DNA from: Alphaproteobacteria bacterium
Lineage (GTDB): Bacteria > Pseudomonadota > Alphaproteobacteria > SMXQ01
Length of the DNA: 36,304 bases
Assembly: GCA_030831315.1 (NCBI GenBank)
Contig: JAURLI010000073.1
Location: forward strand, 1-36,304
Direction of reading: 5' to 3'
The stretch's first letter is position 1. The number at the start of each line of letters is the position of its first letter. The position numbers and the translations under genes are program-made. Positions 1,175 through 22,997 of this stretch are shown here, piece after piece. The notes beneath the pieces were generated by a model, which saw only the letters and a list, made by a program, of their open reading frames with translations, had not been told where the DNA came from and did not search any database.

Positions 1175-1206
1175 GAATATTACCGTTGCGAAGGGTGGTA
1201 ATGTTC
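1175..1206. promoter_or_regulatory. Inverted repeat upstream of LysR gene, candidate operator
   Basis: GAATATTACC at 1175-1184 is mirrored by GGTAATGTTC at 1197-1206 with a 12-base spacer and one mismatch per arm of ten. It lies in an AT-rich stretch about 45 bases before the regulator's GTG start. ATTACC-N12-GGTAAT fits the dyad geometry of LysR-type binding sites, so autoregulation is plausible. No footprint or second copy upstream of 2301 was found by eye. Confidence 0.4.
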
Positions 1207-1251
1207 GCCATATTAATAAAAAAAATACACATATTCCCAGGGAGAAAATCG

Positions 1252-2169
1252 GTGGATGACCTCAACGAAATCGCAATTTATGCGCGCGTGGTGGAACGAA
1301 AGAGCTTTTCCGCCGCCGCCAAGGACCTGCACCTGTCACCATCCGTCGTGTCCAAGCGTGTCACCGCGCTCGAGGAGCGACTGGGCGTGCTGCTGCTCAA
1401 CCGCTCGACGCGCCGGCTGTCGCTGACCGAGGCAGGCAACCAATTCTATCGCCGCTGCGCCAAGGCCCTTGGCGACATCAATCTCGCCGCAGGCGAAGCC
1501 GCCGCCATGTCGGAAAAGGCAACCGGACTGGTGCGCGTCTATTCGACGCTGGGCGTGGGCCTGCGCACGATCGCCGAAGGCATCATCGCCTTTGGTGTGC
1601 AACATCCCGAGGTTTCGGTGGAACTGATGATCGGCACCGATCCGGTCAACCTGATCGAGCACGGCATCGACGTCGTCATCCGCAGCGCCGACCTGCGCGA
1701 CGCCAGCATCGAATCGCGACAGCTCATGCCGATCAATTACCACATCGTCGGGGCGCCCGAATACTTCGAGGAGCACGGCAAGCCGGGCACGCCGCACGAC
1801 CTCGTTCATCACAACTGCCTGTTGCATCAGGGCCGTCGCGTGCCGAACGAATGGACCTTCAACGGCCCCACCGGCCCCTATACGGTCCGCGTCGGCGGGT
1901 CGTTTTCGACCAATTCGGGGGCGGTCCTGCAGGCAGCCGCACTGAAGGGCATCGGCATCTGCCACCTGCCCGGTTACACGGTGCGCGACCACCTGCGCGC
2001 GGGGAGGCTGATTTCGATTTTCGACGGCCAGCACTCCTCCGACCGCTGCCTGCGGGCCTTCTATACCCGCACGCGTTTCCCGCAGCCCAAGGTCGTGATG
2101 CTGCTCGATTTCCTGCAGAATTACATGGTCGAGGCCGAAGGTCAGCCGCGCAAGGCCGCCAACGGCTGA
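1252..2169 (+). CDS. LysR-family transcriptional regulator
   Basis: I chose the GTG at 1252 because a GGGAG ribosome site at 1240-1244 sits seven bases upstream and translation then begins at the usual LTTR N-terminus (V/M-DDLNEIAIYARVVE). The longer ATG at 1186 would add 22 lysine/isoleucine-rich residues with no family counterpart. The 305-residue protein has the winged HTH (SFSAAAKDLHLSPSVVSKRV, then LLNRSTRRLSLTEAG) and a LysR substrate domain from about residue 90. This length is normal. Position suggests it controls the downstream run beginning at 2301, the upstream thiolase pair, or both. The inducer cannot be told from sequence. Confidence 0.93.
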   Translation: MDDLNEIAIYARVVERKSFSAAAKDLHLSPSVVSKRVTALEERLGVLLLNRSTRRLSLTEAGNQFYRRCAKALGDINLAAGEAAAMSEKATGLVRVYSTLGVGLRTIAEGIIAFGVQHPEVSVELMIGTDPVNLIEHGIDVVIRSADLRDASIESRQLMPINYHIVGAPEYFEEHGKPGTPHDLVHHNCLLHQGRRVPNEWTFNGPTGPYTVRVGGSFSTNSGAVLQAAALKGIGICHLPGYTVRDHLRAGRLISIFDGQHSSDRCLRAFYTRTRFPQPKVVMLLDFLQNYMVEAEGQPRKAANG

Positions 2170-2300: not shown

Positions 2301-3104
2301 ATGATCGACGGATTTTCGCATATCGTCCTGCATGTCACGGACCTTGACCGGTCCGAGGCGTTCTATCGTGACGTTTTCGGCCTCGACGTCATCGGCCGAG
2401 ATCTCGTCGCCGACGAGGGGCGCAATTCGCTGCTGGGCACCAATACCCGCCAGCGCGTCCTCTTGGTCGAGGTGCCTGAAGTCGTCGCCATCCGCCCCAA
2501 CTCATCCTCCATCCATCACGCCTGGCTGCTGACAATCGACGAATTCGAGCGCGCCAAGGACCGCTTTGCTGCGGCCGGATTCGACATCAACGACAGCCGC
2601 GCCCAGTTCCGCGCGCGTGGCGAGAATTCCGTCGATATCTTCGACCCCGACGGACATCGCTTCCAGGTGCAGGCCTACAGCCCAGCCGCGACCGAGGTCA
2701 TCAAGGAAAACACCGGCCCCATCGCCTGTGGCCACATGGACGATTACGCGGTCGGCGCGGTAAAGGCCTTCGTCAAGGGCAAGTTCTTCCTCGTCCGGAT
2801 CGAGGAAGGCTTCCTCGCCGTGTCGCGCTGGTGCACTCACATGAACGGCCTCTTGTCGTGGAAACAGGAGCACTGGCATTTCTACTGTCCGATGCATGGC
2901 GCCATGTTCAACCGCAAGGGAGAATCGCTCCCCTGTTCGCGCCCCTGCCCGACCCTTCGCCTGCACCCGGTCACCATCGGGGCCGACGGCACCATCACCG
3001 TCGATCCCGACACCGCCATCCGGCGCGACGGCTTCGACCCCGCCCAGGTCGTGCCCGCGAAGGCGGGCGCATCAAGCCGTTTCCCCGAAACGGCGCTTTG
3101 CTGA
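2301..3104 (+). CDS. VOC (glyoxalase/dioxygenase)-Rieske [2Fe-2S] fusion protein 1
   Basis: The protein has 267 residues. Residues 1-127 form one VOC domain (FSHIVLHVTDLDRSEAFY start, DPDG turn near 115). Residues about 140-235 form a Rieske ferredoxin domain with CxH at C178/H180, a 15-residue spacer and CxxH at C196/H199, exactly the [2Fe-2S] ligand pattern. In the VOC part the expected metal ligands are H7, H73 and a Glu; the third position is Gln122, so the usual 2-His-1-Glu site is altered. By family, VOC domains include extradiol dioxygenases and glyoxalases, and Rieske domains carry electrons; a self-contained redox enzyme is an inference. A paralogue lies at 7291-8148. A VOC gene follows after 12 bases. 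Confidence 0.88.
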   Translation: MIDGFSHIVLHVTDLDRSEAFYRDVFGLDVIGRDLVADEGRNSLLGTNTRQRVLLVEVPEVVAIRPNSSSIHHAWLLTIDEFERAKDRFAAAGFDINDSRAQFRARGENSVDIFDPDGHRFQVQAYSPAATEVIKENTGPIACGHMDDYAVGAVKAFVKGKFFLVRIEEGFLAVSRWCTHMNGLLSWKQEHWHFYCPMHGAMFNRKGESLPCSRPCPTLRLHPVTIGADGTITVDPDTAIRRDGFDPAQVVPAKAGASSRFPETALC

Positions 3105-3116
3105 AACGGAGCCCCC

Positions 3117-3584
3117 ATGGCCGATGTAGAAACCCTGTCCCACTCCGGCATATCCGTTCACGATCTGAAGGAAGCGGAGGACTTCTACTGCGGCATCCTT
3201 GGCGCCCAGGTCCACGGCGCGGTCAATTTCGTGACCGAGGACACCCTGAAGGGACGCTCCGTGCACCAGAGCTATACCCTCGGCGATTTCCTCTTCGCCC
3301 TCGTGCTGGCGCCCGATTTCATGCCGATGCCGCCTGCGGACAAGCTGATGGGCGTCAACGGCTTTCGCCATGCCTTCGCCGTGCGCCACGCCGACTTCGA
3401 CGCGACGATCGCGCGCCTCAAGGCCGCGGGCGTTCCGTTCAAGGGGCCGGTCGGCCATCCGGACAAAGGGCCCTTCGGCGAATCGGTCTATTTCAAGGAC
3501 CCGAGCGGTAATTTCCTCGAGCTTCTGTGGCGGCGCGACGAAAACGTCGACTACGCCAAGGCGCCGCAACTGGACGTCGGCTGA
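3117..3584 (+). CDS. Single-domain VOC protein, extradiol dioxygenase/glyoxalase-like (copy 1)
   Basis: This 155-residue protein begins at an ATG preceded by CGGAG. It has paired beta-alpha-beta-beta-beta modules typical of the VOC superfamily. The likely metal triad is complete: H9 in LSHSGISVHD, H85 in FRHAFAV and E135 in DPSGNFLELLW. That makes it a candidate Fe(II)- or Mn(II)-dependent ring-cleavage or related enzyme, though the substrate cannot be assigned. It follows the VOC-Rieske gene closely and has a close, nearly gap-free paralogue at 8151-8630 behind the second VOC-Rieske gene. The conserved pairing suggests the two proteins work together. Confidence 0.88.
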   Translation: MADVETLSHSGISVHDLKEAEDFYCGILGAQVHGAVNFVTEDTLKGRSVHQSYTLGDFLFALVLAPDFMPMPPADKLMGVNGFRHAFAVRHADFDATIARLKAAGVPFKGPVGHPDKGPFGESVYFKDPSGNFLELLWRRDENVDYAKAPQLDVG

Positions 3585-3592
3585 GACGGGAC

Positions 3593-4522
3593 ATGGACGC
3601 AAGCCTCGACAAGCAAAAGACCGGGCTGACCGCAAAAGCGCTCTCGCACCTCGTGATAGAGGTCGACGACCTCGCGGTCGGCGGTTTCTATCGCGATGTC
3701 CTGGGCTTTGCGCCGCTTGGCAGCGACATGATCGGGAACTGTGGCGCTTCGGTAACGCTCGGCGCGGCGAACGGTGGCCTTCTCGTTCTCTCCAGGCGCG
3801 ACGATCGCCCAGATTGCTCGGCAACCGGCGTCCACCAGGCCTATGCCGTCGGCAAGGCGGCGCGCGCGACGATCGCCGCCGCCCTGAAAGATCGCGGCAT
3901 CGCAGTCCATACCTACAAGGAAGACCGACCGGCAGAGGAAGCCGATAATTTCTATTTCGCCGATCCCGCCGGCAACCGCGTGCAGATCGTCGCCCGCGAT
4001 GATGCCGCCGGTCGCCCGCCCACCCTCGATCACGCAGCCGTGCAGGTCGCCAACATGTGGTGGGCCGAAGTTTTCTATACACAGACACTCGGCTGCGCCG
4101 TCGAACATCGGGTCGGCTGGAAAACCACCGACTACGCCCGCGCCCAGTTATGGGCGGACGGCAAGGAAGACATGGCGCCCGGCACGCGGCGGCTCGACCA
4201 GCGCTATTCGTCCATCGTCAACAAGAAGGCGATGCCGCGCGTCAACCTGCAGATCTACCTGCGCATGGGCGCGGTTCCCTTCGCGGTCTATCTCGCCAAC
4301 CAGCATTTCCAGGAACCCCCGGAAAACATGCTGGCAGGTACGCCGCGCGCCGGTTTCTCGGTGACGAACGAGACACTCGACAACACGGCGCGCATCCTCG
4401 ATGCGGCTCGCTGGCCGCAGCATGGCCCTGTCCTTATTGGCGAAGGCCCGATCGCACGCGCGCTTTATTTCAAGGACCCGGGCGGGAACTTCATCGAGCT
4501 TGCCGTGCGCCGGGAAAACTGA
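3593..4522 (+). CDS. Tandem two-domain VOC protein
   Basis: I chose the ATG at 3593, eight bases after the previous stop with GACGGG upstream; it gives 309 residues. Two VOC domains are visible. Domain 1 (about 15-135) has LSHLVIEVDD, H81 and DPAGNRVQ, again with Gln131 where Glu is usual. Domain 2 (about 143-306) has LDHAAVQV with H147 and DPGGNFIEL with E302, but the middle His is not obvious (PRAGFSV). Two-domain VOC proteins include type I extradiol dioxygenases, which keep only one active site, so partial loss is not surprising. Function is uncertain; the gene sits in the apparent VOC operon. Confidence 0.85.
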   Translation: MDASLDKQKTGLTAKALSHLVIEVDDLAVGGFYRDVLGFAPLGSDMIGNCGASVTLGAANGGLLVLSRRDDRPDCSATGVHQAYAVGKAARATIAAALKDRGIAVHTYKEDRPAEEADNFYFADPAGNRVQIVARDDAAGRPPTLDHAAVQVANMWWAEVFYTQTLGCAVEHRVGWKTTDYARAQLWADGKEDMAPGTRRLDQRYSSIVNKKAMPRVNLQIYLRMGAVPFAVYLANQHFQEPPENMLAGTPRAGFSVTNETLDNTARILDAARWPQHGPVLIGEGPIARALYFKDPGGNFIELAVRREN

Positions 4523-4568
4523 ACCAACGAACCACAAAAACCCCACAGGGAACGCCAAGAGAGAAAAA

Positions 4569-5789
4569 ATGACAAAGCTTCATGAGTACCCCCGCTTCTC
4601 CATCGCCGAACGCGACCGTCGCTGGCAGGTCGTGCGCACCGCCATGGCCGCCCAGGGCATCGACGTCATCGTCTGCCCCAACAACACCGGCCACTCGACC
4701 GATTTTCAGGCCAACTGCCGGTGGCTGAGCCACGTCGGCGGCGGCGGCGATGCCGATATCGCCGTGGTGTTCCCGCTCAACGGCGACATAACCGCCATCG
4801 CCACCTCGGCCGCACCGCGCTGGCCTACGGTGCAGGACTGGACGCTGGACGTGCGCGAGGCCCGGCGCAATTACGGCAAGGTCGCGGTCGAGCGCCTGAA
4901 GGAACTGGGCGTCGAGAACGGCGTCATCGGCATCACCGGGCTCGGCGAGATCGGCGGCACGCGCACGCCCGAAGGCACCGTCGGCCTCGGCTTCTGGCGC
5001 CAGATCCGGGAAACCTTTCCCAAGGCAAAGCTCGTCGACGCCTCCTCCATCCTCGTCGAAGCCCGCTACATCAAGAGCGACGAAGAAGTCGCCGCCCTGC
5101 AGAAGTCGATGGACATCATCGAGGAAGGCATCAAGGCGAAGATCGCGACCGCGCGCGCCGGCGTAAAGGACTGGGAAGTCTGGGCCGCCGCCCAGTACGG
5201 CATGATGAAGAACGGCTCCGAAATCCCCGTGCACTGCAACTGGATTTCCGGGCCCAATGACGTACGTACCCTGACGCGCCCGTCCCATCGCATTCTCCAG
5301 CGTGGTGATCTGATCATCAACGAGTTGGAAGCGAACTGGATGGGTTACCGCTCACAGGCGGTCCAGCCCGTCTTCGTCGAAGTGGCCGATCCCGTGCATC
5401 TCGAACTGATCAAGGTGCAGCGCGAGGTGTTCCAGAAAATCGCCGAAATGCTGCGTCCCGGCATTACCGTGAGGGAGCTTTCCGAGGCGACCCGCGCCGC
5501 CGGTGAAAAGGCCGCGCCCAAGACCGGGCCTGCGGCAGGTGCCGTCTGCGGCCTGACCATGCATGGCCGTGGCGCCGGCGACGATGGCCCGATCATCACC
5601 AACCATGCCCGCGATCCCGAGCAGCTTGCGACCGTGATGAAGGAAAACATGGTCTTCATCTTCAAGCCCCACGCCCAGACGGCGGAACGGACGCATATCA
5701 GCACCTGGGGCGATACCATCGTGGTGACGCCCAAGGGGGCGAAGCGCATGGGCAAGCGCCCGCACGATCTCGCGATCGCGGGCGCCTGA
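4569..5789 (+). CDS. M24-family (creatinase/Xaa-Pro peptidase-like) protein with altered metal site
   Basis: The 406-residue protein starts at an ATG after AGAGAGAAAAA. It has a creatinase N-terminal domain (to about 160) and a pita-bread domain with SGPND, RPSHRILQRGD and MHGRGAG. In metal-dependent M24 enzymes the GD segment is followed by two Asp ligands and the protein ends with a Glu in an EDT motif. Here the corresponding parts read INELEANWMGYRSQ and WGDTIVVT, so several metal ligands are replaced. Creatinase itself works without metal, so an amidinohydrolase- or hydrolase-like activity on a small substrate is more likely than a peptidase. It lies between the VOC genes and the first binding-protein gene, as part of the same run. 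Confidence 0.85.
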   Translation: MTKLHEYPRFSIAERDRRWQVVRTAMAAQGIDVIVCPNNTGHSTDFQANCRWLSHVGGGGDADIAVVFPLNGDITAIATSAAPRWPTVQDWTLDVREARRNYGKVAVERLKELGVENGVIGITGLGEIGGTRTPEGTVGLGFWRQIRETFPKAKLVDASSILVEARYIKSDEEVAALQKSMDIIEEGIKAKIATARAGVKDWEVWAAAQYGMMKNGSEIPVHCNWISGPNDVRTLTRPSHRILQRGDLIINELEANWMGYRSQAVQPVFVEVADPVHLELIKVQREVFQKIAEMLRPGITVRELSEATRAAGEKAAPKTGPAAGAVCGLTMHGRGAGDDGPIITNHARDPEQLATVMKENMVFIFKPHAQTAERTHISTWGDTIVVTPKGAKRMGKRPHDLAIAGA

Positions 5790-5897
5790 GGCAAACCGGC
5801 GGCGCGCGTCGCACGACCGGAGAAAAAAGTATCAGGCGTAGCCGATGCCGCCGCGTCCTGCGGTGGCCGACGACAACCTTGATGAAGGGAGCGCATC

Positions 5898-7271
5898 ATG
5901 ACCCCGATGACCCGACTTGCCCCGGCGCTGGCGGCGCTTGGCCTGATTACCGGCGCCGCAACGGCATCGGCCGCGGACCTGCCCGCCTCGACGAAGGCGA
6001 TCCTTGCCGAAACCAAGCTGCCGGAATCCATCCTGTCCGGCCTCGACAAGGAGCTCGAGGTTCCCGCCGCATGGATGGACGAGGCGAAGGCGCGCAAGAA
6101 GCTCTCCATCGTATCGACCTGGGACAACAACCAGTTCCGCAAGATGGTTGCCCCCTTCAAGGAGCGCTACCCGTTCCTGGACATCACCTACGCGCGCTCG
6201 TCCTATAACCAGCGGGTGGTGCGCACCCTGATCGCCTGGAAAGAAGGCCGGCGGCTGACCGACATCATCACCGGCTTCGGCGGCGGCTATTTTCTGTTCA
6301 AGGAAGCCGACGCGCTGGAAGACATGCGCGACATCCCGGGCTTCCGCAACAACGTGCCCGCGAACATGCGCGATGCCGAAGGCAACTGGGTCGGCCAGCG
6401 CCTGCGCTACTGGTGCATGTCCTACAACACCAACATGGTGAAGAAGGCGGACCTCCCCAAAACATGGGAGGACCTGCTGACCAATGCCGCCTGGCACGGC
6501 AACAAGATCGGCCTCGTCAACCGGCCACAGCTCTGGCTCCTGATGCTATGGGGCGACAAGGGCGCCGACTGGACCAAGCGCTACATGAAGGACTTCCTCG
6601 AAAAGACGAAGCCGCAGATGCGCAAGGAAGGCACCAATGCCATGGTGGCGCTGACCGTGGCCGGCGAATTCCAGGCGTCCCTGCCGTCGGCCGCCTATCG
6701 CACCAAGCAGTATCTCGACAAAGGCGCGCCAATCAGCTGGCACTGCCCGGAACCGGTGCCGCTCGCGGTTTCGGAAATGGGGATCGTCAAGGGCACGCCC
6801 AACACGGCAGCAGCCAAGATATTCACCAACTGGTTCCTGTCGAAAGAAGGCCAGATCGCGCAATACGCGGCCGACCAGGCCCCACCCGTGCACAAGGATT
6901 TGCAGACCCGCGAGTTCCTCGCCTTCCCTGACGAGATCATCGGCAAGAAGATCGCCTTCCGCGGTCCCGAAGCCGAAGAAGTGACCAAGGAGGTTTTCGC
7001 CAACTGGGATGCCCTGTGGAAGGCCAACGCCGGCGAGGACAAGACCACGCTGTTCAAGGTGACGGCGAAGCTCGATGCCGTGAAGCAGCGCGGACGCACC
7101 ATTTCCTTCAAACGCGAGGGCAAGACCCAGGAGCTTCAGGTTTCGGGCAGCCGCACCAAGCTGACGATCGCCGGCAAGAAGGAAAGCCGCAGCAAGCTCA
7201 AAGCCGGCATGACCTGCGAAATCGAGGGACCCGAAAACGGGCCCGAAGCAACCGTAGTTACCTGCAAGTAA
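5898..7271 (+). CDS. ABC transporter periplasmic binding protein 1 (iron(III)/AfuA-like family) with extra C-terminal domain
   Basis: The protein has 457 residues and starts at an ATG with GAAGGGAG upstream. A Sec signal peptide (ATASA-AD) is followed by a class-1 periplasmic binding fold of the AfuA/FbpA type: SIVSTWDNNQFRKMV, FKERYP, GRRLTDII, then WCMSYNT, and LPKTWEDLL. After about residue 390 there is an extra domain of about 65 residues with VSGSRT, LKAGMTC and a terminal TCK; it is also present on the proteins at 8717, 10307 and on the unrelated TctC-type protein at 25731. The ligand is unknown; the catabolic context makes an organic substrate as likely as iron. Two binding-protein paralogues follow further downstream. 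Confidence 0.9.
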   Translation: MTPMTRLAPALAALGLITGAATASAADLPASTKAILAETKLPESILSGLDKELEVPAAWMDEAKARKKLSIVSTWDNNQFRKMVAPFKERYPFLDITYARSSYNQRVVRTLIAWKEGRRLTDIITGFGGGYFLFKEADALEDMRDIPGFRNNVPANMRDAEGNWVGQRLRYWCMSYNTNMVKKADLPKTWEDLLTNAAWHGNKIGLVNRPQLWLLMLWGDKGADWTKRYMKDFLEKTKPQMRKEGTNAMVALTVAGEFQASLPSAAYRTKQYLDKGAPISWHCPEPVPLAVSEMGIVKGTPNTAAAKIFTNWFLSKEGQIAQYAADQAPPVHKDLQTREFLAFPDEIIGKKIAFRGPEAEEVTKEVFANWDALWKANAGEDKTTLFKVTAKLDAVKQRGRTISFKREGKTQELQVSGSRTKLTIAGKKESRSKLKAGMTCEIEGPENGPEATVVTCK

Positions 7272-7290
7272 GCGAACGGGAGAAACATAG

Positions 7291-8148
7291 ATGGCGCTCA
7301 ACGGCGCGTTTTCGCATCTGGTGGTTGAATGCGCGGACCTTGAAAAGTCCGAGGCCTTCTACCGCGACGTGATCGGACTTGATGTTGTCGGCCGCAACCT
7401 CGTCGCCGACAACCGGCCCAACTCGTTGCTTGCCACCAACACCCGCCAGCGCCTGCTGCTGGTCGAAACCGGCGAGGTGCCCCCCTATCCGGGTTCGGGC
7501 GGCTCGATCCACCACGCCTGGCTCCTGACTATCGAGCAGTTCAAGGCAGCGCGCGACCGGCTGGAAGCGGCGGGCTTTTCCAGCGGCATCGATCCCCGCC
7601 AGAGCTTCCGCGCCGTCGGCGAATACAACATGGACATCCATGACCCTGACGGCAACCGCTTCCAGATCCAGGCCTTCGGCGAGGAAGGTACCGAGATCCT
7701 GCGTTCGGGCGCGGGCACGGTCATGATGGGACACATGGACGACTTTGCCGTCGGCAGCGTCACCCACAACCGCAAGGGTCGCTTTTTCCTGGTGCGGGAA
7801 GACGAAGGCTTCCTCGCCGTGTCGTCGTGGTGCACCCACAAGAACGGGCTCACGATCTGGCAGAAGGAAAGCTGGCACTTCTACTGCCCGTTCCACGGCG
7901 CCAAGTACGACCGCAAGGGATGCTACGTCGGACACATGGGCTGCCAGCCGATGCGCCTGCACCCGATGCAGATCGACGCGCTCGGCCAGGTGGTGGTCGA
8001 TACCAACCGGTTTTTTGGCCGCAGCGGCTTCGAAGCCGCGCAGGCGGTGCCGGCTGAGCCCGGCGGAAAATTCGACGAGACGGGCCTGACCGAACTGCCC
8101 GCCTGCGACGAAAAAGAAGTACGCGAACGCGCAAAGACAGGGGGCTGA
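7291..8148 (+). CDS. VOC-Rieske [2Fe-2S] fusion protein 2
   Basis: This 285-residue paralogue of the 2301 gene keeps the same order. The VOC domain (1-130) has FSHLVVE (H9), SIHHAWLL (H74/H75) and DPDGNRFQ with Gln125 in the third ligand position. The Rieske domain (about 143-240) has C181-x-H183, a 15-residue spacer and C199-x2-H202. The C-terminal tail is longer and charged (ACDEKEVRERAKTGG). It starts at an ATG after ACGGGAG, 19 bases after binding protein 1, and stops two bases before the next VOC gene. The retained Gln and Rieske ligands in both copies argue for a real shared function rather than decay. Confidence 0.88.
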   Translation: MALNGAFSHLVVECADLEKSEAFYRDVIGLDVVGRNLVADNRPNSLLATNTRQRLLLVETGEVPPYPGSGGSIHHAWLLTIEQFKAARDRLEAAGFSSGIDPRQSFRAVGEYNMDIHDPDGNRFQIQAFGEEGTEILRSGAGTVMMGHMDDFAVGSVTHNRKGRFFLVREDEGFLAVSSWCTHKNGLTIWQKESWHFYCPFHGAKYDRKGCYVGHMGCQPMRLHPMQIDALGQVVVDTNRFFGRSGFEAAQAVPAEPGGKFDETGLTELPACDEKEVRERAKTGG

Positions 8149-8150
8149 TC

Positions 8151-8630
8151 ATGTCCGGCGTTGAAAGCATTTCGCACAGCGGCATCTGCGTGCACGACCT
8201 CAAGGCGGCGGAGGATTTTTACTGCAAGGTCCTGGGCGCCACCGTGCACAGCCGCGTCAACTTCAAGACACAGGATGCGTTGCGCGGGCGCAGCGTGCAC
8301 ACATCGCTGATGCTCGACGATTACCTGTTCGCGGTCATGCTGAGCGAGGACTGGATGGACGTCCCGCCGCCCAAAGTGCTGCGCGGCGAGAACCGCGTGC
8401 GCCATGCCTTCTGCGTGCCACGGGCCCGCTTCGGCGCTGTGGTCGAACGATTGCAGGCCAACAGCATTCCGTTCGAAGGGCCGGTCAGCCACCCCGAACA
8501 GGGACCATTCGGCGAATCGGTCTATTTCCGGGATCCGACGGGAAATTTCCTGGAGGTTCTCTGGCGGCGCGACGAAGACGCCGTCTATAACGAGGTGCAG
8601 CCGCTGGGTCACGGCGGCGGCGGCGCCTGA
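8151..8630 (+). CDS. Single-domain VOC protein, extradiol dioxygenase/glyoxalase-like (copy 2)
   Basis: This 159-residue protein aligns with the 3117 gene without gaps over 155 positions. The putative metal triad is kept at the same residue numbers: H9 (ISHSGICVHD), H85 (VRHAFCV) and E135 (DPTGNFLEVLW). A glycine-rich tail (HGGGGA) is the main difference. It starts two bases after the VOC-Rieske stop, with the ribosome site GGGGG inside that gene's end, implying tight co-translation. Activity is probably metal-dependent, but the substrate is unknown. Confidence 0.88.
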   Translation: MSGVESISHSGICVHDLKAAEDFYCKVLGATVHSRVNFKTQDALRGRSVHTSLMLDDYLFAVMLSEDWMDVPPPKVLRGENRVRHAFCVPRARFGAVVERLQANSIPFEGPVSHPEQGPFGESVYFRDPTGNFLEVLWRRDEDAVYNEVQPLGHGGGGA

Positions 8631-8716: not shown

Positions 8717-10081
8717 ATGAACAGGACTTCTCTGACAGCGGGGGCTCTCAGTTTCGCCCTGGCGGTGTTCGTCGCCGGCCAGGCGCCGGCCGCGGACCTG
8801 CCGAAGGCTACCCAGGCCATCATGAAGGAAACCAAGCTACCCGCCGAAGTGCTGGCGGGGCTGGATAATGAGCTCAAAATGCCCGCCAAGTGGATCGAGG
8901 GCGCGAAGAAGGAAGGCACGCTGACCGTCAGCGGCACCTGGGATGCCGACCAGTTCGAAGCCCTCGTCGGCCCTTTCCGCGAACGCTATCCCTTCGTCAC
9001 CTTCAAGTATTCGCGCGCCACGCGCCATGACCGCGTGATCAAGCCGCTGCTCGCCTACAAGGCCGGGCGCATCGTCGCCGATGTCATTTCCGGCGTCGGG
9101 GCCAAGTTCACGGCGTTCAAGGAAATCAACGCCATTCTCGATCTCAGCCAGCTGCCCAACTGGAAGAACGTGCCCGACGGCATGAAGGACAAGAACGGCG
9201 GCTGGATCGGCCAGCGCCTGCGCTACTGGTGCATGTCCTACAACACCAGCAAGCTGAAGAAGTCGGAACTGCCCAAGACCTGGGACGACCTGCTGACGAT
9301 CGAGAAACTTCGCGACGGCAAGGTCGGCATGGGCAACCGGCCCAACCTGTGGCTCCTGTCCATGTGGGACGTCAAGGGCGAGAACGCCATCCGCGAATAC
9401 GCCCGCCAGCTGTTTACCGTGGTCAAGCCGCAGCTGCGCAAGGAAGGCATGAACGCGCTGATCAGCCTGGCCACCGCAGGCGAATTCGACGTGGCGCTGC
9501 CGTCCGCTGCCTACCGCGTCAGCCAGATGGTGCCGAAGGGTGCGCCCATCGGCTGGCACTGTCCGGAGCCGGTGCCGATGGCGATTTCCGAAATGGTGGC
9601 GATCAAGGGCGGACATGAAAATGCCGCGCTGATGTTCGTCAACTGGTTCGCCTCGCGCGAGGGACAGGTCGCTCAGTTTGCTGCCAATAACGCACCGCCC
9701 GTGCACAAGGACTTGCACCGGCGCGAGTTCCTGGCCTTCCCCGATGAAATCCTCGGCAAGAAGATCGCCTTCCGCGACCCCGAGGCGATGGAGAACGACC
9801 TCAAGAAGCTGATGCGCTTCTGGGATCCGATGTGGTTTTCGGCCAAGGGCCTCAAGCTGCATATCGTGACCGCGAAGCTCGACAAGGTCGGACGCAAGGG
9901 ACGTGACGTCACCTTCAAGGTCGATGGCAAGGCCCAAAAAGCCAAGGTTTCCGGGTCGCGCACGGGGATCGAGATCGATGGCGCCGATGCGGCGCGGGCC
10001 GAACTCAAGGCCGGCATGACCTGCGAAATCGCTTATCCCGGAGACGGAGAGGAGGCGACCAAGCTAGACTGCAAGAAGTAG
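8717..10081 (+). CDS. ABC transporter periplasmic binding protein 2 (AfuA-like) with extra C-terminal domain
   Basis: The protein has 454 residues, starting at an ATG preceded by GAAGGAG. The signal peptide ends APA-AD. The binding domain carries SGTWDADQFEAL, FRERYP, SRATRHDRVIKPLLAYKAGR, WCMSYNT and WHCPEPVPMAISEM. The final part repeats the accessory module with VSGSRTGIEIDG, LKAGMTC and LDCKK. It is very close to the next gene product, so the pair is a recent tandem duplication, while binding protein 1 is more distant. Cys in WC, HCPEP, GMTC and the last CK are conserved in all three, consistent with periplasmic disulphides. The ligand is unknown. Confidence 0.9.
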   Translation: MNRTSLTAGALSFALAVFVAGQAPAADLPKATQAIMKETKLPAEVLAGLDNELKMPAKWIEGAKKEGTLTVSGTWDADQFEALVGPFRERYPFVTFKYSRATRHDRVIKPLLAYKAGRIVADVISGVGAKFTAFKEINAILDLSQLPNWKNVPDGMKDKNGGWIGQRLRYWCMSYNTSKLKKSELPKTWDDLLTIEKLRDGKVGMGNRPNLWLLSMWDVKGENAIREYARQLFTVVKPQLRKEGMNALISLATAGEFDVALPSAAYRVSQMVPKGAPIGWHCPEPVPMAISEMVAIKGGHENAALMFVNWFASREGQVAQFAANNAPPVHKDLHRREFLAFPDEILGKKIAFRDPEAMENDLKKLMRFWDPMWFSAKGLKLHIVTAKLDKVGRKGRDVTFKVDGKAQKAKVSGSRTGIEIDGADAARAELKAGMTCEIAYPGDGEEATKLDCKK

Positions 10082-10128: not shown

Positions 10129-10306
10129 CCCACCCGCAACGGCCGCAGGTTCGAACGAACCCTTCGATCCGGCCGCACACATTCGTGAGGTTCCAAGCGG
10201 CGCACAGACGCCGCGTGACAAGGCTTCCGCCGCCCGGCCATCGCGCCGGCGGCGCGTTTGCCGTGTGCGCGCCCCCGTGGCGCGATCTCAGGCTATGGAG
10301 GAAACA

Positions 10307-11665
10307 ATGCTTCACCAGTTGATCAAGGCGGGCGCCGCTGTGGCCGCCCTTGCCGCTGTGGCCCCGGCGACGGCGGCCGAACTGCCCAAGGCGACACAGG
10401 CGATCATGAAGGAAACAGGACTGCCCGCCGACGTGCTCGACGGCCTCGACGCCGAGCTTGTCATGCCCGCCAAATGGATCGAGGGCGCCAAGAAGGAACG
10501 CCAGCTGATCGTCAGCGGCACCTGGGATGCCGACCAGTTCGAGGCGCTGGCTGCGCCCTTTCGCGAACGCTATCCCTACATCCGTTTCAAGTATTCGCGC
10601 GCAACGCGCCATGACCGCGTGATCAAACCGCTGCTCGCCTACAAGGCGGGCCGCATCGTGTCGGACCTGATCTCCGGCGTCGGGGCCAAGTATTCGGCTT
10701 TCCGCGAGATCAACGCCATCCTCGACATGCGCCAGATTCCCAACTGGAACAACGTGCCCGATGGCATGAAGGACAAGGACGGCGGCTGGATCGGCCAGCG
10801 CCTGCGCTACTGGTGCATCGCCTACAACAAGAATGCGCTGGCCAAGGCCGACCTGCCGAAAACATGGGACGACCTGCTGACAAATCCGAAGCTGCGCGGC
10901 GGCAAGATCGGCATGGGCAACCGGCCCAACCTGTGGCTGCTGCCGATGTGGGACATGAAGGGCGAAACGGCGATCCGCGACTATGCCTCGAAGCTGTTCG
11001 GCGAGGTGAAGCCGCAACTGCGCAAGGAAGGCATGAACGCGCTGATCAGCCTGGCGACGGCGGGCGAGTTCGACATTTCCCTGCCATCGGCCGAATACCG
11101 CGTCAGCCAGATGGAACGCAAGGGCGCGCCGATCAGCTGGCATTGCCCGGAACCTGTACCTATGGCGATTTCGGAAATGATCGGCCTCAAGGGCGGGCAT
11201 GAAAACGCCGCCCTGATGTTCGTCAACTGGTTCATGTCGAAGGAAGGCCAGGTATCTCAATTCGCAGCCAACTACGCACCCCCCGTGCACAAGGACCTGC
11301 GCCGGCGCGAATTCCTCGCCTATCCAGATGAGATCCTCGGTCGCAAGATCGCCTTCCGCGATCCCGAAGCGATGGAGACGGACCTGCCCAAGCTGATGCG
11401 CTTCTGGGACCCGATGTGGTTCTCGGCAAAGGGCCTGAAGCTCGATGTCGTCACCGCCAAGCTCGACCAGGTCGCCAAGAAAGGCGCCAGCGTCAACTTT
11501 ACGGTGAACGGCAAGGCGCAGACCGTGCGCATTTCGGGTTCGCGCACGACGATCGAGATCGACGGCGTCGACGGCCAGCGGGCCGAACTGAAGGCCGGGA
11601 TGACCTGCGAGATCGCCTATCCCGGCAACAACCAGGAAGCGCTCAAGATCGACTGCAAGAAATAG
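10307..11665 (+). CDS. ABC transporter periplasmic binding protein 3 (AfuA-like) with extra C-terminal domain
   Basis: I chose the ATG at 10307 because GGAGG (10297-10301) lies at good spacing and a signal peptide then begins directly (MLHQLIKAGAAVAALAAV, cut near ATA-AE). The product has 452 residues. It parallels binding protein 2 along its length: SGTWDADQFEAL, SRATRHDRVIKPLLAYKAGR, WCIAYNK, WHCPEPVPMAISEM, and the accessory domain with ISGSRTTIEIDG, LKAGMTC and IDCKK. No ATPase gene is found in the window, and the only matching permease is about 8 kb away on the other strand. The ligand is unknown. Confidence 0.9.
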   Translation: MLHQLIKAGAAVAALAAVAPATAAELPKATQAIMKETGLPADVLDGLDAELVMPAKWIEGAKKERQLIVSGTWDADQFEALAAPFRERYPYIRFKYSRATRHDRVIKPLLAYKAGRIVSDLISGVGAKYSAFREINAILDMRQIPNWNNVPDGMKDKDGGWIGQRLRYWCIAYNKNALAKADLPKTWDDLLTNPKLRGGKIGMGNRPNLWLLPMWDMKGETAIRDYASKLFGEVKPQLRKEGMNALISLATAGEFDISLPSAEYRVSQMERKGAPISWHCPEPVPMAISEMIGLKGGHENAALMFVNWFMSKEGQVSQFAANYAPPVHKDLRRREFLAYPDEILGRKIAFRDPEAMETDLPKLMRFWDPMWFSAKGLKLDVVTAKLDQVAKKGASVNFTVNGKAQTVRISGSRTTIEIDGVDGQRAELKAGMTCEIAYPGNNQEALKIDCKK

Positions 11666-15261: not shown

Positions 15262-15696
15262 TCACCCCTTTTCGAAATGCGACTTGCCCATCTTCGTATA
15301 GGTCTCGTGGATGGCTTCCTGCGGCTCGCCGCCCGCGCGCAGGTCTTCGCGCATCTCCCAGTTGATGTGCTTGATGTTGTTCTGGTTGCCCGAGCGGTTG
15401 CCCATCAGGATCATCGGGCCTGCACCGGAATTCTCCAGCATGTAGAAGGAACCGCCGGTGATCAGCGCCGCCATGCCGGGGTCGAGCACCGCCTTGCCGC
15501 CATCGGGGAAGTGCATGGTGCATTGTCCCTCGATGCAATAGAAGGTCTGGTCCTCGTTATGGCAGTGCATGTCGTCATGATCGCCCGGGTTGGTATAAAA
15601 ATGCACCCAGGCATGCATCTTGCGGGTGTTCATCACCACCGTGCGCTTTTTGGTGGCCTTGGCCAGTTCCGGGCAGTTGATGACTTCGATCCCCAT
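15262..15696 (-). CDS. Cupin-domain protein
   Basis: The 144-residue protein starts at the ATG at 15696 with GGAGGGG nearby. A single cupin barrel is visible with the metal motif HxH (H44, H46) and Gln50, then FYCIEG, followed by the second motif near PGMAALITGGSFYML. HxHxxxQ instead of HxHxxxE occurs in many bacterial cupins. It may be a small dioxygenase, isomerase or sensor protein; the substrate cannot be named. It is divergent from the amidohydrolase gene, and a promoter candidate lies between them. Confidence 0.85.
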   Translation of the reverse strand: MGIEVINCPELAKATKKRTVVMNTRKMHAWVHFYTNPGDHDDMHCHNEDQTFYCIEGQCTMHFPDGGKAVLDPGMAALITGGSFYMLENSGAGPMILMGNRSGNQNNIKHINWEMREDLRAGGEPQEAIHETYTKMGKSHFEKG

Positions 15697-15733
15697 GGCG
15701 TGTTCCCCTCCGTTGTCCTTGCGATTTGGACAC

Positions 15734-15762
15734 AGTCTAGTCCTGCCGGGGCCCCCGCTCAA
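15734..15762 (-). promoter_or_regulatory. Candidate sigma-70 promoter for cupin gene
   Basis: On the minus strand, TTGAGC (15757-15762) and TAGACT (15734-15739) are separated by 17 bases. Each matches four of six consensus bases. The -10 box lies about 40 bases before the cupin ATG. The surrounding 166-base divergent region also must serve the amidohydrolase gene, for which no convincing boxes were seen. Confidence 0.4.
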
Positions 15763-15862
15763 TCGCCCGCGCCCAACTGGCCAAAGCCCCCGGGGCCTTG
15801 TTAGAATGGCCCAAAATCCGGCCCCGGCCGGCAGCCAATAAACAAGGGGGAGGACGCGCCAG

Positions 15863-16909
15863 ATGGGCAGCATTGACGCCGACGCGCATGTCATCGAATC
15901 GCCGCTGACCTGGGCCCATATCGCCCGGGAAGATGCCCGCTTCACGCCGCTGGTCGTGAGCCAGACCTGGGGCTCAGAACAGGCCGATCCCGACGGACGG
16001 CGCGCCAGTGAATACTGGCTGATGGACAACCGCCTGCATGCGCGCGACCGCAACGTCGGCTCCGACACCACGGTGGAATCGCGCGAGATGCGCGATGTCG
16101 AAGCGCGGCTCGCCCATATGGACGAACTCGGCATCGACGTGCAGGTTCTCTACCCCACCGTTTTCCTGCGCCCCGCCGTGCGCACGGCGGCGGCCGAGCT
16201 CGCCCTGACCAAAGCCTATAACCGCTGGCTCGCCGGTATCTGGAAACGCGCGCCCGAGCGGCTGCGCTGGGTGGCGATGCCGCCGCTTCTCAGCAACGAC
16301 GCGCTGCGCGACGAGCTTGCCTGGTGCAAGGACAACGGCGCCTGCGGCATCTTCATGCGTGGCCTCGAATGGGACCGCAACGTCGCCGACCCGTTCTTTT
16401 TCCCACTCTATGAAATGGCTCAGGAGCTGGACCTGCCCATCTGTTTCCATTCGGGCAACAATTCGATCCTGCACCACGACTTCTTCCTCGACGACACCAC
16501 CTTCACCAAGTTCAAGCTGGCCGTCGTCGGCGCCTTCCATTCGCTTCTGGAAAAAAACATCCCCACGAAGTTTCCCGAAGTGCGCTGGGGCTTCGTCGAG
16601 ATCAGCGCCCAGTGGGTGCCCTATGTCTGCCACGACCTGCGCTACCGCTTCCGCCGCCTCGGCCGGCGCCTGCCGGACAAGCCGCTGGCAGCGAACCGCA
16701 TGTATGTCTCCTGCGAAGTGACCGACGACATTCCCTACATCTTGCAGTACGCGGGCGACGACAACCTGATGCTCGGCACCGACTACGGACATCACGATCC
16801 GTCCACCGAGATCAACGCCTTCACGCTGATCCGCGGGCGCGACGACATCGCCGCCGGCGTCATCGAAAAAATCACCGACAAGAACCCGCGCGCCCTTTAC
16901 GGGCTCTAG
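15863..16909 (+). CDS. Amidohydrolase-2 family metal-dependent hydrolase/decarboxylase
   Basis: The 348-residue protein starts at an ATG after GGGGGAGGA. It is a TIM-barrel amidohydrolase of the ACMSD type: DADAHVIES at the N-terminus (D7-x-H9 in place of the classic HxH), FHSG with H196, and GTDYGHHD with D307 near the C-terminus. Members include aminocarboxymuconate semialdehyde decarboxylase and 5-carboxyvanillate decarboxylase (LigW), so an aromatic or ring-fission acid is a reasonable but unproven substrate. It leads a plus-strand run with SDR, AKR and tandem-VOC genes spaced by 16-24 bases. Confidence 0.9.
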   Translation: MGSIDADAHVIESPLTWAHIAREDARFTPLVVSQTWGSEQADPDGRRASEYWLMDNRLHARDRNVGSDTTVESREMRDVEARLAHMDELGIDVQVLYPTVFLRPAVRTAAAELALTKAYNRWLAGIWKRAPERLRWVAMPPLLSNDALRDELAWCKDNGACGIFMRGLEWDRNVADPFFFPLYEMAQELDLPICFHSGNNSILHHDFFLDDTTFTKFKLAVVGAFHSLLEKNIPTKFPEVRWGFVEISAQWVPYVCHDLRYRFRRLGRRLPDKPLAANRMYVSCEVTDDIPYILQYAGDDNLMLGTDYGHHDPSTEINAFTLIRGRDDIAAGVIEKITDKNPRALYGL

Positions 16910-16933
16910 GCGCCATCAGGGAGGACGTACCGC

Positions 16934-17758
16934 GTGACCGATCTCAATTCCGGCAATCTGGACAAGGAAATCGCCAAGGACGGCTCTGCCATTGTCCGCG
17001 ACGGCATGAAGAAGGGCGACATCGCCGTGGTCACGGGCTGCGCCCGCGGCTTCGGCCGTGCGATCTCGCTCCGCCTTGCCCGCGAAGGCGCCAGGCTCGC
17101 CGTGTGGGACCTGCTCGGCGACGAAGGCGAGGAAACCGCGCGCATGTGCCGCGACGCGGGCACCGACGCTCAGTTCTTCCACGCCGACATGGGCAGCCCC
17201 GCGGACATTACCGCCGCCGCCAAGGCGACCGTGGAACGCCTCGGCGCGCCCTTTGTCGTCGTCAACAATGCTGGCATCAACCTGCGCTGCGCGGCCATCG
17301 ACCACCCGGCCGAGATGTGGACCAAGACGCTCAACGTCAACCTGGTCGGCGCCTTCCTGTGCGCCCAGGCCTTCGCCCGCGAAATGATCAGGAACAAGCG
17401 CGGCGGGGTGATCATAAACTTCGCCTCGGGGCGCGCCATCGAAGGGGCGGCCAACTCCATCGCCTATGCTGCGTCGAAGGCAGGTATCATCGCCATGACC
17501 AAGACCGAGGCGACGGAATGGGCGAAGCACAAGATTCGTGTGAACGCCATCATCCCCGGCGTGTCCGAGACGCGCCAGCCGCTGGAAGCAGGCGGCACGC
17601 TGGAAGAGCTGCGCGAACGCGGCAAATCCATTCCGCTTGGTCGCGTCGGCCATCCCGACGACATCGCCGGCATGGTTGCTTTCCTTGTATCGGCCGATGC
17701 CGCCTATATCACCGGCCAGGGCCTCGCCATCAACGGCGGGCGCATCATGCTGCCGTAG
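16934..17758 (+). CDS. Short-chain dehydrogenase/reductase (SDR)
   Basis: Translation starts at GTG (16934) after AGGGAGG. The 274-residue protein is a classical SDR with TGCARGFG at 34-41 for the nucleotide, NNAG at 111-114, Ser165 and the YAASK catalytic pair (Y178, K182). Asp at the end of beta-2 (AVWDLLGD) favours NAD(H) over NADP(H), by family rule. A 25-residue N-terminal extension before the fold is slightly unusual. It lies 24 bases after the amidohydrolase gene and 16 before the AKR gene, so all are probably co-transcribed. Confidence 0.93.
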   Translation: MTDLNSGNLDKEIAKDGSAIVRDGMKKGDIAVVTGCARGFGRAISLRLAREGARLAVWDLLGDEGEETARMCRDAGTDAQFFHADMGSPADITAAAKATVERLGAPFVVVNNAGINLRCAAIDHPAEMWTKTLNVNLVGAFLCAQAFAREMIRNKRGGVIINFASGRAIEGAANSIAYAASKAGIIAMTKTEATEWAKHKIRVNAIIPGVSETRQPLEAGGTLEELRERGKSIPLGRVGHPDDIAGMVAFLVSADAAYITGQGLAINGGRIMLP

Positions 17759-17774
17759 GACAGGGACCCACAGG

Positions 17775-18770
17775 ATGAAATACCGCACTCTCGGCCCCGG
17801 CGGGCTCAAGGTCTCGGCCATCGGCTTCGGCGGGCGCCGCCTTTCGGACAACCACACCGATACCCAGAACGACGACGTCAAGGCCCAGGCGCTGGTCGAT
17901 CACGCCATCGCCAGCGGCCTGACGCTGATCGACACCGCCGACATGTATGCCAACACCAAGAACGAATCTCTGTTCGGCCGCATTCTCGCGGGCGGGCGGC
18001 GCCAGAAGGTGGTGCTGGCGACCAAGTTCGGACTGGTGACGAACGCCGATGGCAGCCGTGGCATCAACGGACGACCCGACTACGCCGTCGCCGCCTGCGA
18101 GGCGAGCCTCAAGCGCCTCAACACCGATTGTATCGACCTTTACTATCTGCACCGGGTCGATCCCGACGTGCCCATCGAAGATACCGTGGGCGCTATGGCG
18201 CGGCTCAAGGAACAGGGCAAGATCCGCCACCTCGGCCTCTCGGAAGCGGGTGCCGCAACCCTGCGCCGGGCCTGCAAGGTCCACCCGATCGCCGCCCTGC
18301 AGAGCGACTACTCGCTCTGGGCGCGCGATTACGAAGCCGACACCCTTCCCGCCTGCCGTGAACTTGGCATCGGCTTCGTCGCCTATTACCCGCTCGGCAT
18401 GGGCTTCCTGGCAGGCGCCATCCGCGAGGTCGAGGCGCTGGGTCCCAACGATTCCCGTCGCAAGACCCCGCGTCTTCAGGACGAGAACATCGGCCACAAC
18501 TGGGGACTGCTGCTCAACCTGCGCGATATCGCCAACGAAAAGGGCTGCAAGCTGAGCCAGCTGGCCCTTGCCTGGATTCTCGCCCAGGCGCCCGACTACA
18601 TCGCCATTCCGGGCACGTCCCAGATTCCCCACCTTGCCGACAATCTCGCCGCCGCCGACGTCGAGCTGAGCGCCGACGACCTTGCCCGCATCGACGAGAT
18701 CTTTCCCCGTGGCGGCAGCGCCGCGGGCCCGCGCCTGCCGAAAGACCGGCTGGCCGAACTGAACCGCTGA
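17775..18770 (+). CDS. Aldo/keto reductase
   Basis: The 331-residue protein begins at the ATG at 17775 (CAGG just upstream). The catalytic tetrad of the AKR family is complete: D53 and Y58 in IDTADMY, K84 in ATKFG and H126 in YYLHRVD. The C-terminal IPGTSQIPHLADNLAA segment is the NADP(H)-binding loop. Such enzymes reduce aldehydes and ketones or run the reverse reaction. In this operon it may act on a ring-fission aldehyde, but no specific substrate can be assigned. Confidence 0.95.
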   Translation: MKYRTLGPGGLKVSAIGFGGRRLSDNHTDTQNDDVKAQALVDHAIASGLTLIDTADMYANTKNESLFGRILAGGRRQKVVLATKFGLVTNADGSRGINGRPDYAVAACEASLKRLNTDCIDLYYLHRVDPDVPIEDTVGAMARLKEQGKIRHLGLSEAGAATLRRACKVHPIAALQSDYSLWARDYEADTLPACRELGIGFVAYYPLGMGFLAGAIREVEALGPNDSRRKTPRLQDENIGHNWGLLLNLRDIANEKGCKLSQLALAWILAQAPDYIAIPGTSQIPHLADNLAAADVELSADDLARIDEIFPRGGSAAGPRLPKDRLAELNR

Positions 18771-18787
18771 CACGCAGGGAGCCGGAC

Positions 18788-19603: not shown

Positions 19604-19627
19604 AAGGGACTGAGGTTTTGCGGTTTT

Positions 19628-21391
19628 CTAGTGCCCCGCCTGCTGAACCTTGGCGCCGCGGCCGAAGCCCATAGCGCGCATACCCAGCGTGATCACCAGC
19701 AGGAAGATAATCATCAGAGTACCGATGGCCCCAACGGCCTCGATATTGCCTTCATCCCACATGTTCCATATGAGGATAGCGAGAACCTGATTTTCTGCCC
19801 CTTCGTAAAGGACAAGCGGCTTACCCGCCTGACGGATGGCGTGAAGCATGCACCAGATCCATACGCCGACGAAGGTGGGCAGCATAAGCGGATAGAAAAT
19901 GCGCCACATGGTCCGCCAGTGCGGCGCCCCTGAGGTATGCGCGGCCTCTTCCAGATCCTTGTGGATCTGCAGGATCGCGGCATTCATGGAACGCGTCCCA
20001 TAGGCCATGAACCCGACCACGAAGGCAAGCGAGATCGCCCAGATGCCGCCATGGATGGGGATCCCATACTTATCCATCTGCAGGAACACCCACAGGAATG
20101 CTAGACCCATGACGATGCCGGGAATGGCATGGGGCATGAACGCCAACTGGTCGAGAATCTTACGGCCCCAGAACTTAGAACGCACGACAACTAGCGCAAT
20201 CAGAAAAGACACGATCACCGTCATGGTCGATGCAATGACGACGAGCATGATCGTGTTGGTCATCACCTTGCCGATAAGCGGCGTCTTCCACAGCTCGATA
20301 TAATGCTCAAGGCTCATAGAGGCAAAGGCTGCCGCCGATGGTGCCTGCAGGTAGGGCAGGAAGGAAACGAACAGCAGAACCAAGAACGGCAAGATGATCG
20401 AAAATAGCAGAAACAAGAAAACGATGCCGAAGGCAACCCAGCGCCAGCGCCCGAGACTTATCTCGCGGGGGCGGTAGCCCTTACCGGTAATGATCGTGAA
20501 GCGTTCGGACTTGGCGATGATCCGGGCGTAGATCCAGGTAGCACCAATGGCAATCACAACGTAGATCATGGCGAGCGCGTTGGCCTGACCATAGGCGGGA
20601 ATGACCGACACCGAGTGCAGGATCGAATAGATCTTGGTAGAGAAAACATAAATGCTGGCAGGTAAGCCCAAAATGCCGGGCACCTCGAACACCTCGAGCG
20701 CCGTCATGAACTGGTAGATGGTGACCGCCAGAAGGCCCGGCAGCATGACCCGCAGCGTCACCTTGCGCAGTGTAGAGCGCGGGTTGGCGCCGGACATCGC
20801 GGCGGCTTCCTCGAGCGAAGGGTCCATGGAGCGCAGCAGCGGAACCAGCATCAGGAAGGCCGTCGGTACCAGACGCAGGCCCTCTATGAAGATCATACCG
20901 CCCAGCGAATAGATGTTGATGGGGCCAAGGCCCAGCGGCTCGATCCACTTGTTGATGAAGCCGATGCGCGGGCTAAGCAGCAGAACATAGGCCATCGCTT
21001 GCAGCATACCAGGCATAGCAAGCGTCATCGGCACGCCCGCATAAATCCAGATCTTACCAGGAATGTTCGTACGCTCGACCATCCAGGCGAGGCTTGCTGC
21101 CAGCGAAATACCAAAAGCCGTCGCCCCGATCACGTAGATAAAGGTGTTGGCGAAAACCGAATAGGTATCCGGGTCAAACCAAACGTCCTCGTAGTTGACC
21201 GTACTAAGTTCGGAAAGCGTGAATTCGGTCGGCAAGCTGGCGGTCGAGAAGGAACCAAGAACTAGAAATACCAACGGCGTCACCACCGCAAGAGCGACAG
21301 CCAGAAAGACGATCCAGTGCCAGATCGTAATTGCGGAAATTGCGAACGCCGTAGCGCTTCGGGCCCTGACCGCTATCCCCATTGCCGACAT
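19628..21391 (-). CDS. Fused iron(III)-type ABC transporter permease (FbpB-like)
   Basis: The 587-residue inner-membrane protein has about 12 hydrophobic segments and is two permease units in one chain. Each half contains the EAA loop that contacts the ATPase: LEEAAAMSGANPRSTLRKV in the first and LEEAAHTSGAPHWRTMWRI in the second. This is typical of FbpB/AfuB permeases serving AfuA-type binding proteins, such as those at 5898-11665. No ATPase gene is present in the window. Base composition (about 52% GC in two 60-base lines counted) is lower than in the flanking genes, suggesting a different history. Start ATG at 21391 has AAGGAA upstream. Confidence 0.93.
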   Translation of the reverse strand: MSAMGIAVRARSATAFAISAITIWHWIVFLAVALAVVTPLVFLVLGSFSTASLPTEFTLSELSTVNYEDVWFDPDTYSVFANTFIYVIGATAFGISLAASLAWMVERTNIPGKIWIYAGVPMTLAMPGMLQAMAYVLLLSPRIGFINKWIEPLGLGPINIYSLGGMIFIEGLRLVPTAFLMLVPLLRSMDPSLEEAAAMSGANPRSTLRKVTLRVMLPGLLAVTIYQFMTALEVFEVPGILGLPASIYVFSTKIYSILHSVSVIPAYGQANALAMIYVVIAIGATWIYARIIAKSERFTIITGKGYRPREISLGRWRWVAFGIVFLFLLFSIILPFLVLLFVSFLPYLQAPSAAAFASMSLEHYIELWKTPLIGKVMTNTIMLVVIASTMTVIVSFLIALVVVRSKFWGRKILDQLAFMPHAIPGIVMGLAFLWVFLQMDKYGIPIHGGIWAISLAFVVGFMAYGTRSMNAAILQIHKDLEEAAHTSGAPHWRTMWRIFYPLMLPTFVGVWIWCMLHAIRQAGKPLVLYEGAENQVLAILIWNMWDEGNIEAVGAIGTLMIIFLLVITLGMRAMGFGRGAKVQQAGH

Positions 21392-21436
21392 AACCTGTTC
21401 CTTTCCATTGCGGCGTGCTTCGCCCTAACAACCAAG

Positions 21437-22717: not shown

Positions 22718-22952
22718 TGCGCGGGAACACAGTCTGCACCGTCAACGGACCCCAACCCGGGTCCGGCAACGGCATAACGGCGCTCCCCTGCGCTGGAACC
22801 CGCTTGCCGGGTCCGTTTGTTTATTGGCCGAAAGTTTATCGCGAAGGCTACCGCCACGACCAGCCGATTAATAGGGACACAGTATTTCTCGGCAGCCCGG
22901 AATTGGCTCTTATCCGTTGAAAATAAGCGATAAAAGTGAGTACTTCGTAATC

Positions 22953-22997
22953 AATAAAATTTTATTCAAATTCAATTCTAATAAAATTGAATTTTTT
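22953..22997. repeat. AT-rich palindrome and hairpin
   Basis: AATAAAATTTTATT (22953-22966) is a perfect 14-base palindrome. It is followed by AAATTCAAT (22968-22976) pairing with ATTGAATTT (22986-22994) and then TTT. In a GC-rich genome such a block may mark a promoter/UP element, an IHF-like site or the scar of an insertion; none can be proved from sequence. Confidence 0.5.

Follow-up and report, generated by a model that had tools for sequence, protein, structure and literature searches.

Paired VOC-Rieske fusion genes in an alphaproteobacterial genome suggest an unstudied iron enzyme for the breakdown of organic compounds

The window analysed here, a stretch of 36,304 nucleotides from an Alphaproteobacteria bacterium (assembly GCA_030831315.1, contig JAURLI010000073.1), contains two rightwards-transcribed genes, VR1 and VR2, each encoding a single VOC/glyoxalase domain and, C-terminal to it, a single Rieske domain (Pfam). 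A first-pass annotation had described both as VOC-Rieske fusions with intact [2Fe-2S] ligands, and its ligand numbering proved exact. The genes, their Rieske ligand motifs and the candidate metal-ligand positions in the VOC half of VR1 (aligned with those of FosA by phmmer) are as follows.

2301..3104, + strand: VR1 (VOC-Rieske fusion, copy 1), 267 amino acids (aa); VOC at about aa 5-128 and Rieske at about aa 140-238; PF00903 and PF00355
2319..2321, + strand: VOC metal-ligand candidate H7 of VR1, aligned with FosA H7
2514..2516, + strand: VOC metal-ligand candidate H72 of VR1, aligned with FosA H64
2664..2666, + strand: VOC metal-ligand position Q122 of VR1, aligned with FosA E110
2832..2897, + strand: Rieske ligand motif of VR1, C178-H180-x15-C196-H199
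7291..8148, + strand: VR2 (VOC-Rieske fusion, copy 2), 285 aa; PF00903 and PF00355 above cut-offs; a member of its own orthologous group
7831..7896, + strand: Rieske ligand motif of VR2, C181-H183-x15-C199-H202

The annotation had proposed a Pfam search of both halves, and both score above the cut-offs in the two proteins: Glyoxalase PF00903 with 48.6 bits in each (cut-off 20.6), and Rieske PF00355 with 28.5 bits in VR1 and 27.9 bits in VR2 (cut-off 20.3). Both families also match all members (22/22) of a VR alignment. The motif CxH-x15-CxxH occurs twice among the six-frame open reading frames (ORFs) of the window, where residue shuffles give an expectation of 0.045. An AlphaFold2 model of VR1 shows both halves folded, with a mean predicted local distance difference test score (pLDDT) of 80.8 and a predicted template modelling score (pTM) of 0.60. 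A chance motif or mis-called ORF is ruled out by the shuffles, the Pfam matches, conservation and the ratios of non-synonymous to synonymous change (dN/dS), and an assembly chimera by the presence of the fusion in independent genomes from two phyla; a plasmid-borne location was rejected, there being no plasmid match.

None of the 50 best Foldseek hits to the VR1 model is a PDB chain spanning both halves, and no description of a VOC-Rieske fusion was found in the full texts of open-licence papers, in agreement with the annotation, which did not recognise the fusion as a described enzyme type. Each domain by itself is known; what appears to be undescribed is their combination, together with the His-His-Gln site and the sets of paralogous operons presented below.

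In total, 45 distinct intact VR homologues were collected from one alphaproteobacterial family and four Chloroflexota genomes. The named relatives are metagenome-assembled genomes and the distribution figures are those of samples, beyond which rare members may exist. VR is present in 8 of the 11 genomes of the window's own family (its own genome counted), with no full-length copy in any other family sampled alongside it, and is confined to that family in class-wide and phylum-wide samples of 385 and 299 genomes. Full-length VR also occurs in 4 of 400 Chloroflexota genomes, with 3 to 16 copies each, and is absent from samples of two further phyla, of 296 and 199 genomes, entered via an Actinomycetota and a Vicinamibacteria record, respectively. 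The weaker Chloroflexota matches, with E values from 1e-21 to 1e-27, come from unfused bc-type Rieske proteins, mostly with an N-terminal hydrophobic stretch.

The four Rieske ligands are invariant (45/45), and the VOC positions are kept almost as strictly: H7 in 44/45, H72 in 45/45, and position 122 as Gln in 41/45 or Glu in 4/45. That position 122 is only ever Gln or Glu argues for continued metal binding at this predicted site. In the pairs of window and same-genus sequences, dN/dS is 0.09-0.18 in each domain, with synonymous change about five- to tenfold greater than non-synonymous. Both domains are thus under purifying selection, the VOC half being constrained at least as strongly as the Rieske half, and the suggestion that the retained ligands argue for use is borne out.

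VR1 is 82% identical to its orthologue in the same-genus genome and 56% identical to VR2. In the tree, VR1 and VR2 fall into separate orthologous groups of 7 rows each (99/97 and 100/100), and are therefore old duplicates, not a recent copy pair; the annotation, in speaking of two copies, was right that both are real but understated their standing as ancient paralogs with orthologues in other genomes. One branch (91/79) splits the alphaproteobacterial from the Chloroflexota sequences, and a divergent Chloroflexota clade (100/100) lies beside that split. One Chloroflexota genome carries three divergent VR genes in tandem (L109 2664-5777), of which two have the bc-type disulphide cysteines (CTHxxC...CxCH) and all three have H72 and Q122. 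At another Chloroflexota locus (L091 1237-2748 and 1835-2254) the two halves of VR are out of frame with each other, through either decay of the copy or faulty assembly.

The VOC half belongs to the VOC superfamily, which is defined by paired beta-alpha-beta-beta-beta modules and a metal pocket, by its PF00903 match, FosA-like fold and aligned ligand positions, and is nearest FosA, FosX, FosB and glyoxalase I, not extradiol dioxygenases (Foldseek E 4e-9; phmmer). VR has His-His ligand positions in common with these single-chain VOC metalloenzymes, but they lack a Rieske domain and have Glu as the third ligand where VR has Gln. Its best score against the FosA and FosB NCBIfam models is 33.9 bits, far below every cut-off of that group (171 for the best-scoring model). 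Nor does it have the 2-His-1-Glu triad of type I extradiol enzymes, Gln replacing Glu in 41/45. Type I extradiol and PcpA-type hydroquinone dioxygenases are of the same superfamily, but VR differs from them in its single VOC domain, His-His-Gln site and Rieske domain. Identity as an ordinary extradiol dioxygenase or as FosA was therefore rejected, and the point of the annotation that a Rieske domain on a VOC protein calls for an explanation beyond ordinary extradiol chemistry holds, given both the nearest relatives of the VOC half (FosA, FosX and glyoxalase I) and the Gln. Its further idea of new chemistry, such as a reductive or monooxygenase-like step, is conjectural, as is service of this VOC pocket by the Rieske cluster.

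The Rieske half qualifies as a Rieske protein at the level of motif and fold (CxH-x15-CxxH, PF00355, and a fold like that of 9rk4). Its nearest relatives in sequence and fold are the bc/b6f-type soluble domains, with the same Cys2His2 pattern, such as those of PetC and kuste4569 (9rk4; Foldseek TMt 0.81, root-mean-square deviation 1.9). VR is distinguished from a bc1/b6f Rieske subunit in having no membrane anchor and a VOC domain preceding the Rieske domain. In the main clade (36 sequences with H73), moreover, the bc-type disulphide Cys at 183 or 198 is found in 0/36 and the tuning Ser position is Ala or Val in 35/36. The disulphide and the Ser/Tyr pair are present in kuste4569, the closest Rieske relative with a solved structure, for which the measured potential is +303 mV (PMC12954380), and a review sets disulphide-bearing Rieske proteins of high potential against the Rieske ferredoxins of dioxygenases, whose potentials are lower (PMC12445004). 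The loss of both features suggests that the main clade lowered the potential of a high-potential ancestor, as would be expected of a donor to an oxygenase-type metal.

The Rieske non-heme iron oxygenase alpha subunit, in which the cluster lies ~12 A from the mononuclear iron of the neighbouring subunit, is like VR in combining a Rieske cluster and a mononuclear metal site (presumed in VR) in one chain. It has an N-terminal Rieske domain and a C-terminal ring-hydroxylating (SRPBCC-type) catalytic domain in ~400 aa, whereas VR contains only Rieske and Glyoxalase-type families, with the Rieske domain C-terminal and the presumed catalytic domain a VOC domain, in 267-285 aa.

VR1 and VR2 lie among genes for further VOC proteins and solute uptake.

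1186..2169, + strand: LysR-type regulator adjoining the operon, conserved in the same-genus genome
3117..3584, + strand: VOCa (VOC partner of VR1), 155 aa; PF00903; canonical candidate triad H9/H85/E135
3593..4522, + strand: VOC2x (double-VOC partner), ~309 aa; two VOC domains; model pLDDT 87.2
4563..5789, + strand: M24 protein of creatinase/prolidase fold, lacking the usual metal ligands; PF00557
5898..7271, + strand: SBP1, ABC solute-binding protein; SBP_bac_6/1/8
8151..8630, + strand: VOCb (VOC partner of VR2), 159 aa; PF00903; begins 3 bases after VR2
8717..10081, + strand: SBP2, ABC solute-binding protein
10265..11665, + strand: SBP3, ABC solute-binding protein
19628..21391, - strand: fused ABC permease; BPD_transp_1; homologues within VR operons of other genomes

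A VOCa-type gene adjoins VR in both phyla, and the candidate triad of VOCa (H9 in 24/24, H85 in 21/24, E135 in 24/24) is the 2-His-1-Glu arrangement of extradiol enzymes. The best folds for the VOC2x model include 1zsw, 3oaj, 4huz (PcpA-type hydroquinone dioxygenase) and other two-domain VOC proteins; its first half offers H85 and Q135 as conserved ligand candidates, its second H151 and E306, and within the class sample its occurrence is limited to two members of the window's own family, both with VR. A second double-VOC protein is encoded at 18788-19603 of the window. Loss of dinuclear metal ligands is typical of creatinase-type M24 members, and alignment of the M24 partner with PepQ shows most of these positions replaced. 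The M24 protein at 4563-5789 is a constant partner of VR.

Synteny of VR with a VOC and a double-VOC gene (and with M24, solute-binding protein and permease genes) spans the two phyla, and the triplet of VR, VOC and double-VOC recurs in Chloroflexota. In other members of the family the VR1 and VR2 groups each have their own VOC, double-VOC and M24 neighbours. VR2 in the window is adjoined only by its VOC, with the double-VOC and M24 genes of its set on another contig of the same genome, C72; the double-VOC protein there matches VR2-set orthologues at 47-52% versus 36-39% for the VR1 set, and the M24 protein at 70-75% versus 62-64%. This pair (L146 7916-10112; C72 8000-25000) lies beside an apparent TauD-type dioxygenase gene, seen by eye. 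At a Chloroflexota locus (L110 6594-7937) the small VOC and double-VOC proteins are fused in 448 aa, physically linking these partners. The recurrent triplet, the partner set of each paralog and this fusion make the set a functional unit.

Other genes near VR in Chloroflexota encode cupins, an FAD reductase of the siderophore-interaction type and Rieske oxygenases, one of them LigXa-type; within the operon of the window no gene for such an oxygenase was identified. Together the partner and neighbour genes point to an operon that imports and degrades an organic compound, perhaps an aromatic or N-containing one. Beside the operon, at 15262-25311, are genes for a cupin, an amidohydrolase, an SDR, an aldo/keto reductase and an LVIVD-repeat protein, as well as dehydrogenase E1 alpha/beta-like ORFs (by eye). 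The 2.7 Mb genome contains 21 Rieske domains, many of them in ORFs 380-550 aa long, a striking number of Rieske oxygenase-like genes for a genome of this size. At the right end of the window (30001-36304) the GC content drops from ~63% to 37-49%, and the genes there, including a PAS/histidine kinase and a CheR-PAS protein, are unlike the rest; this segment is possibly an island of foreign DNA, or else a contig end that was wrongly binned or joined (the genome has 2.88% contamination).

We favour, with somewhat less than even confidence, the reading that the Rieske domain passes electrons to a VOC non-heme metal centre for an O2-dependent catabolic step. VR would then be a soluble cytoplasmic non-heme metal enzyme, or a subunit of one, with a built-in electron donor. 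Its C-terminal [2Fe-2S] cluster would be recharged by a cellular reductase and would deliver electrons, within one chain or across a VOC dimer, to a mononuclear metal in the VOC pocket (H7, H72, Q122), with the partner VOC protein possibly contributing its canonical H/H/E site. These electrons would serve an O2-dependent reaction of a solute brought in by the adjacent ABC system, and the product would be handled further by the double-VOC and creatinase-like M24 proteins. We count in support the conservation of ligands and triad, the low dN/dS, the absence of the bc-type disulphide and tuning Ser from the main clade, the synteny, the separate partner set of each paralog, the Rieske oxygenase, cupin and FAD reductase neighbours in Chloroflexota and the 21 Rieske domains of the genome. 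TflA and TxeA are VOC enzymes that open an N-heterocycle with O2, a metal and an external reductant (PMC5749703), and show that ring opening of this kind is possible for a VOC enzyme; they differ from VR in lacking a Rieske domain and in that the reductant acts on the substrate.

Several observations weigh against this reading. An Fe(II) oxygenase would not usually have Gln at position 122, which could point to another metal or none; the relative placement of the VR1 domains is uncertain because the pTM of the model is only 0.60; the VR loci have no constant dedicated reductase gene; and the sequence data are explained just as well by reductive chemistry that uses no O2. The disulphide Cys pair is present in 6/8 copies of the divergent Chloroflexota clade, so its loss is not universal.

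XylT-type ferredoxins re-reduce oxidised catechol 2,3-dioxygenase, and rescue ferredoxins for extradiol enzymes are established. With this precedent the Rieske domain could be a built-in reactivase, only re-reducing accidentally oxidised iron, while an ordinary O2 reaction, extradiol-like or otherwise, proceeds without external electrons at a VOC centre, be it that of VR or of the partner VOC proteins. The canonical H9/H85/E135 triad of the partner VOC and the grouping of the double-VOC fold with PcpA-type and extradiol-like structures are in keeping with this. However, the Gln site of VR itself is unlike that of an extradiol dioxygenase, and the known rescue proteins are separate plant-type four-Cys ferredoxins, not 1:1 Rieske fusions; VR has the Cys2His2 Rieske motif instead. 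We consider a reactivase unlikely. The statement in the first-pass annotation that extradiol enzymes need no electron carrier is correct for catalysis but overlooks both the XylT-type ferredoxins and, among VOC ring-openers, the reductant-needing TflA and TxeA (PMC5749703).

It also seems improbable that the VOC domain is a non-catalytic docking or substrate-binding module, with VR serving as the Rieske ferredoxin of another oxygenase, either the partner VOC or a cellular Rieske oxygenase. The Glu-to-Gln change at the metal site (41/45), the Rieske oxygenase genes beside VR at some Chloroflexota loci and the many such genes in the genome of the window would fit, but a mere adaptor is not expected to keep H7, H72 and Q/E122 in nearly all copies, selection in the window pairs constrains the VOC half of VR no less than the Rieske half, and the operon of the window has no identified Rieske oxygenase gene. 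Least probable, and distinctly so, is that the Rieske domain reduces an organic substrate or intermediate and not the metal, the VOC site then acting on the reduced form with or without O2: TflA and TxeA do act only on reduced toxoflavin and need dithiothreitol in vitro (PMC5749703), but one-electron Rieske clusters are not usual direct reducers of organic substrates.

That a Rieske cluster feeds a mononuclear oxygenase iron is textbook knowledge for one catalytic fold. VR could, although we regard this bolder proposal as doubtful, represent a second kind of Rieske-dependent oxygenase, with a VOC-barrel catalytic domain and a His-His-Gln site in place of the ring-hydroxylating-type domain. Joining of a FosA-like VOC protein to a Rieske domain of bc type would have given rise to it; the family would then have passed between Chloroflexota and a single alphaproteobacterial family and radiated into numerous substrate-specific paralogous operons. 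A second catalytic fold, if true, would mean more than one origin of the principle, and would provide a new testable enzyme family; a more modest result, in which VR is a rescue ferredoxin joined to the enzyme it serves, would exemplify built-in enzyme maintenance. With up to 16 copies per genome and dedicated partner sets, VR looks like a substrate-diversifying catabolic arsenal, and comparable arsenals are reported for SAR202 Chloroflexota (PMC6946804). These genes may at present carry only the annotation 'VOC family protein', and the evidence suggests that they encode an unstudied iron enzyme for the breakdown of organic compounds.

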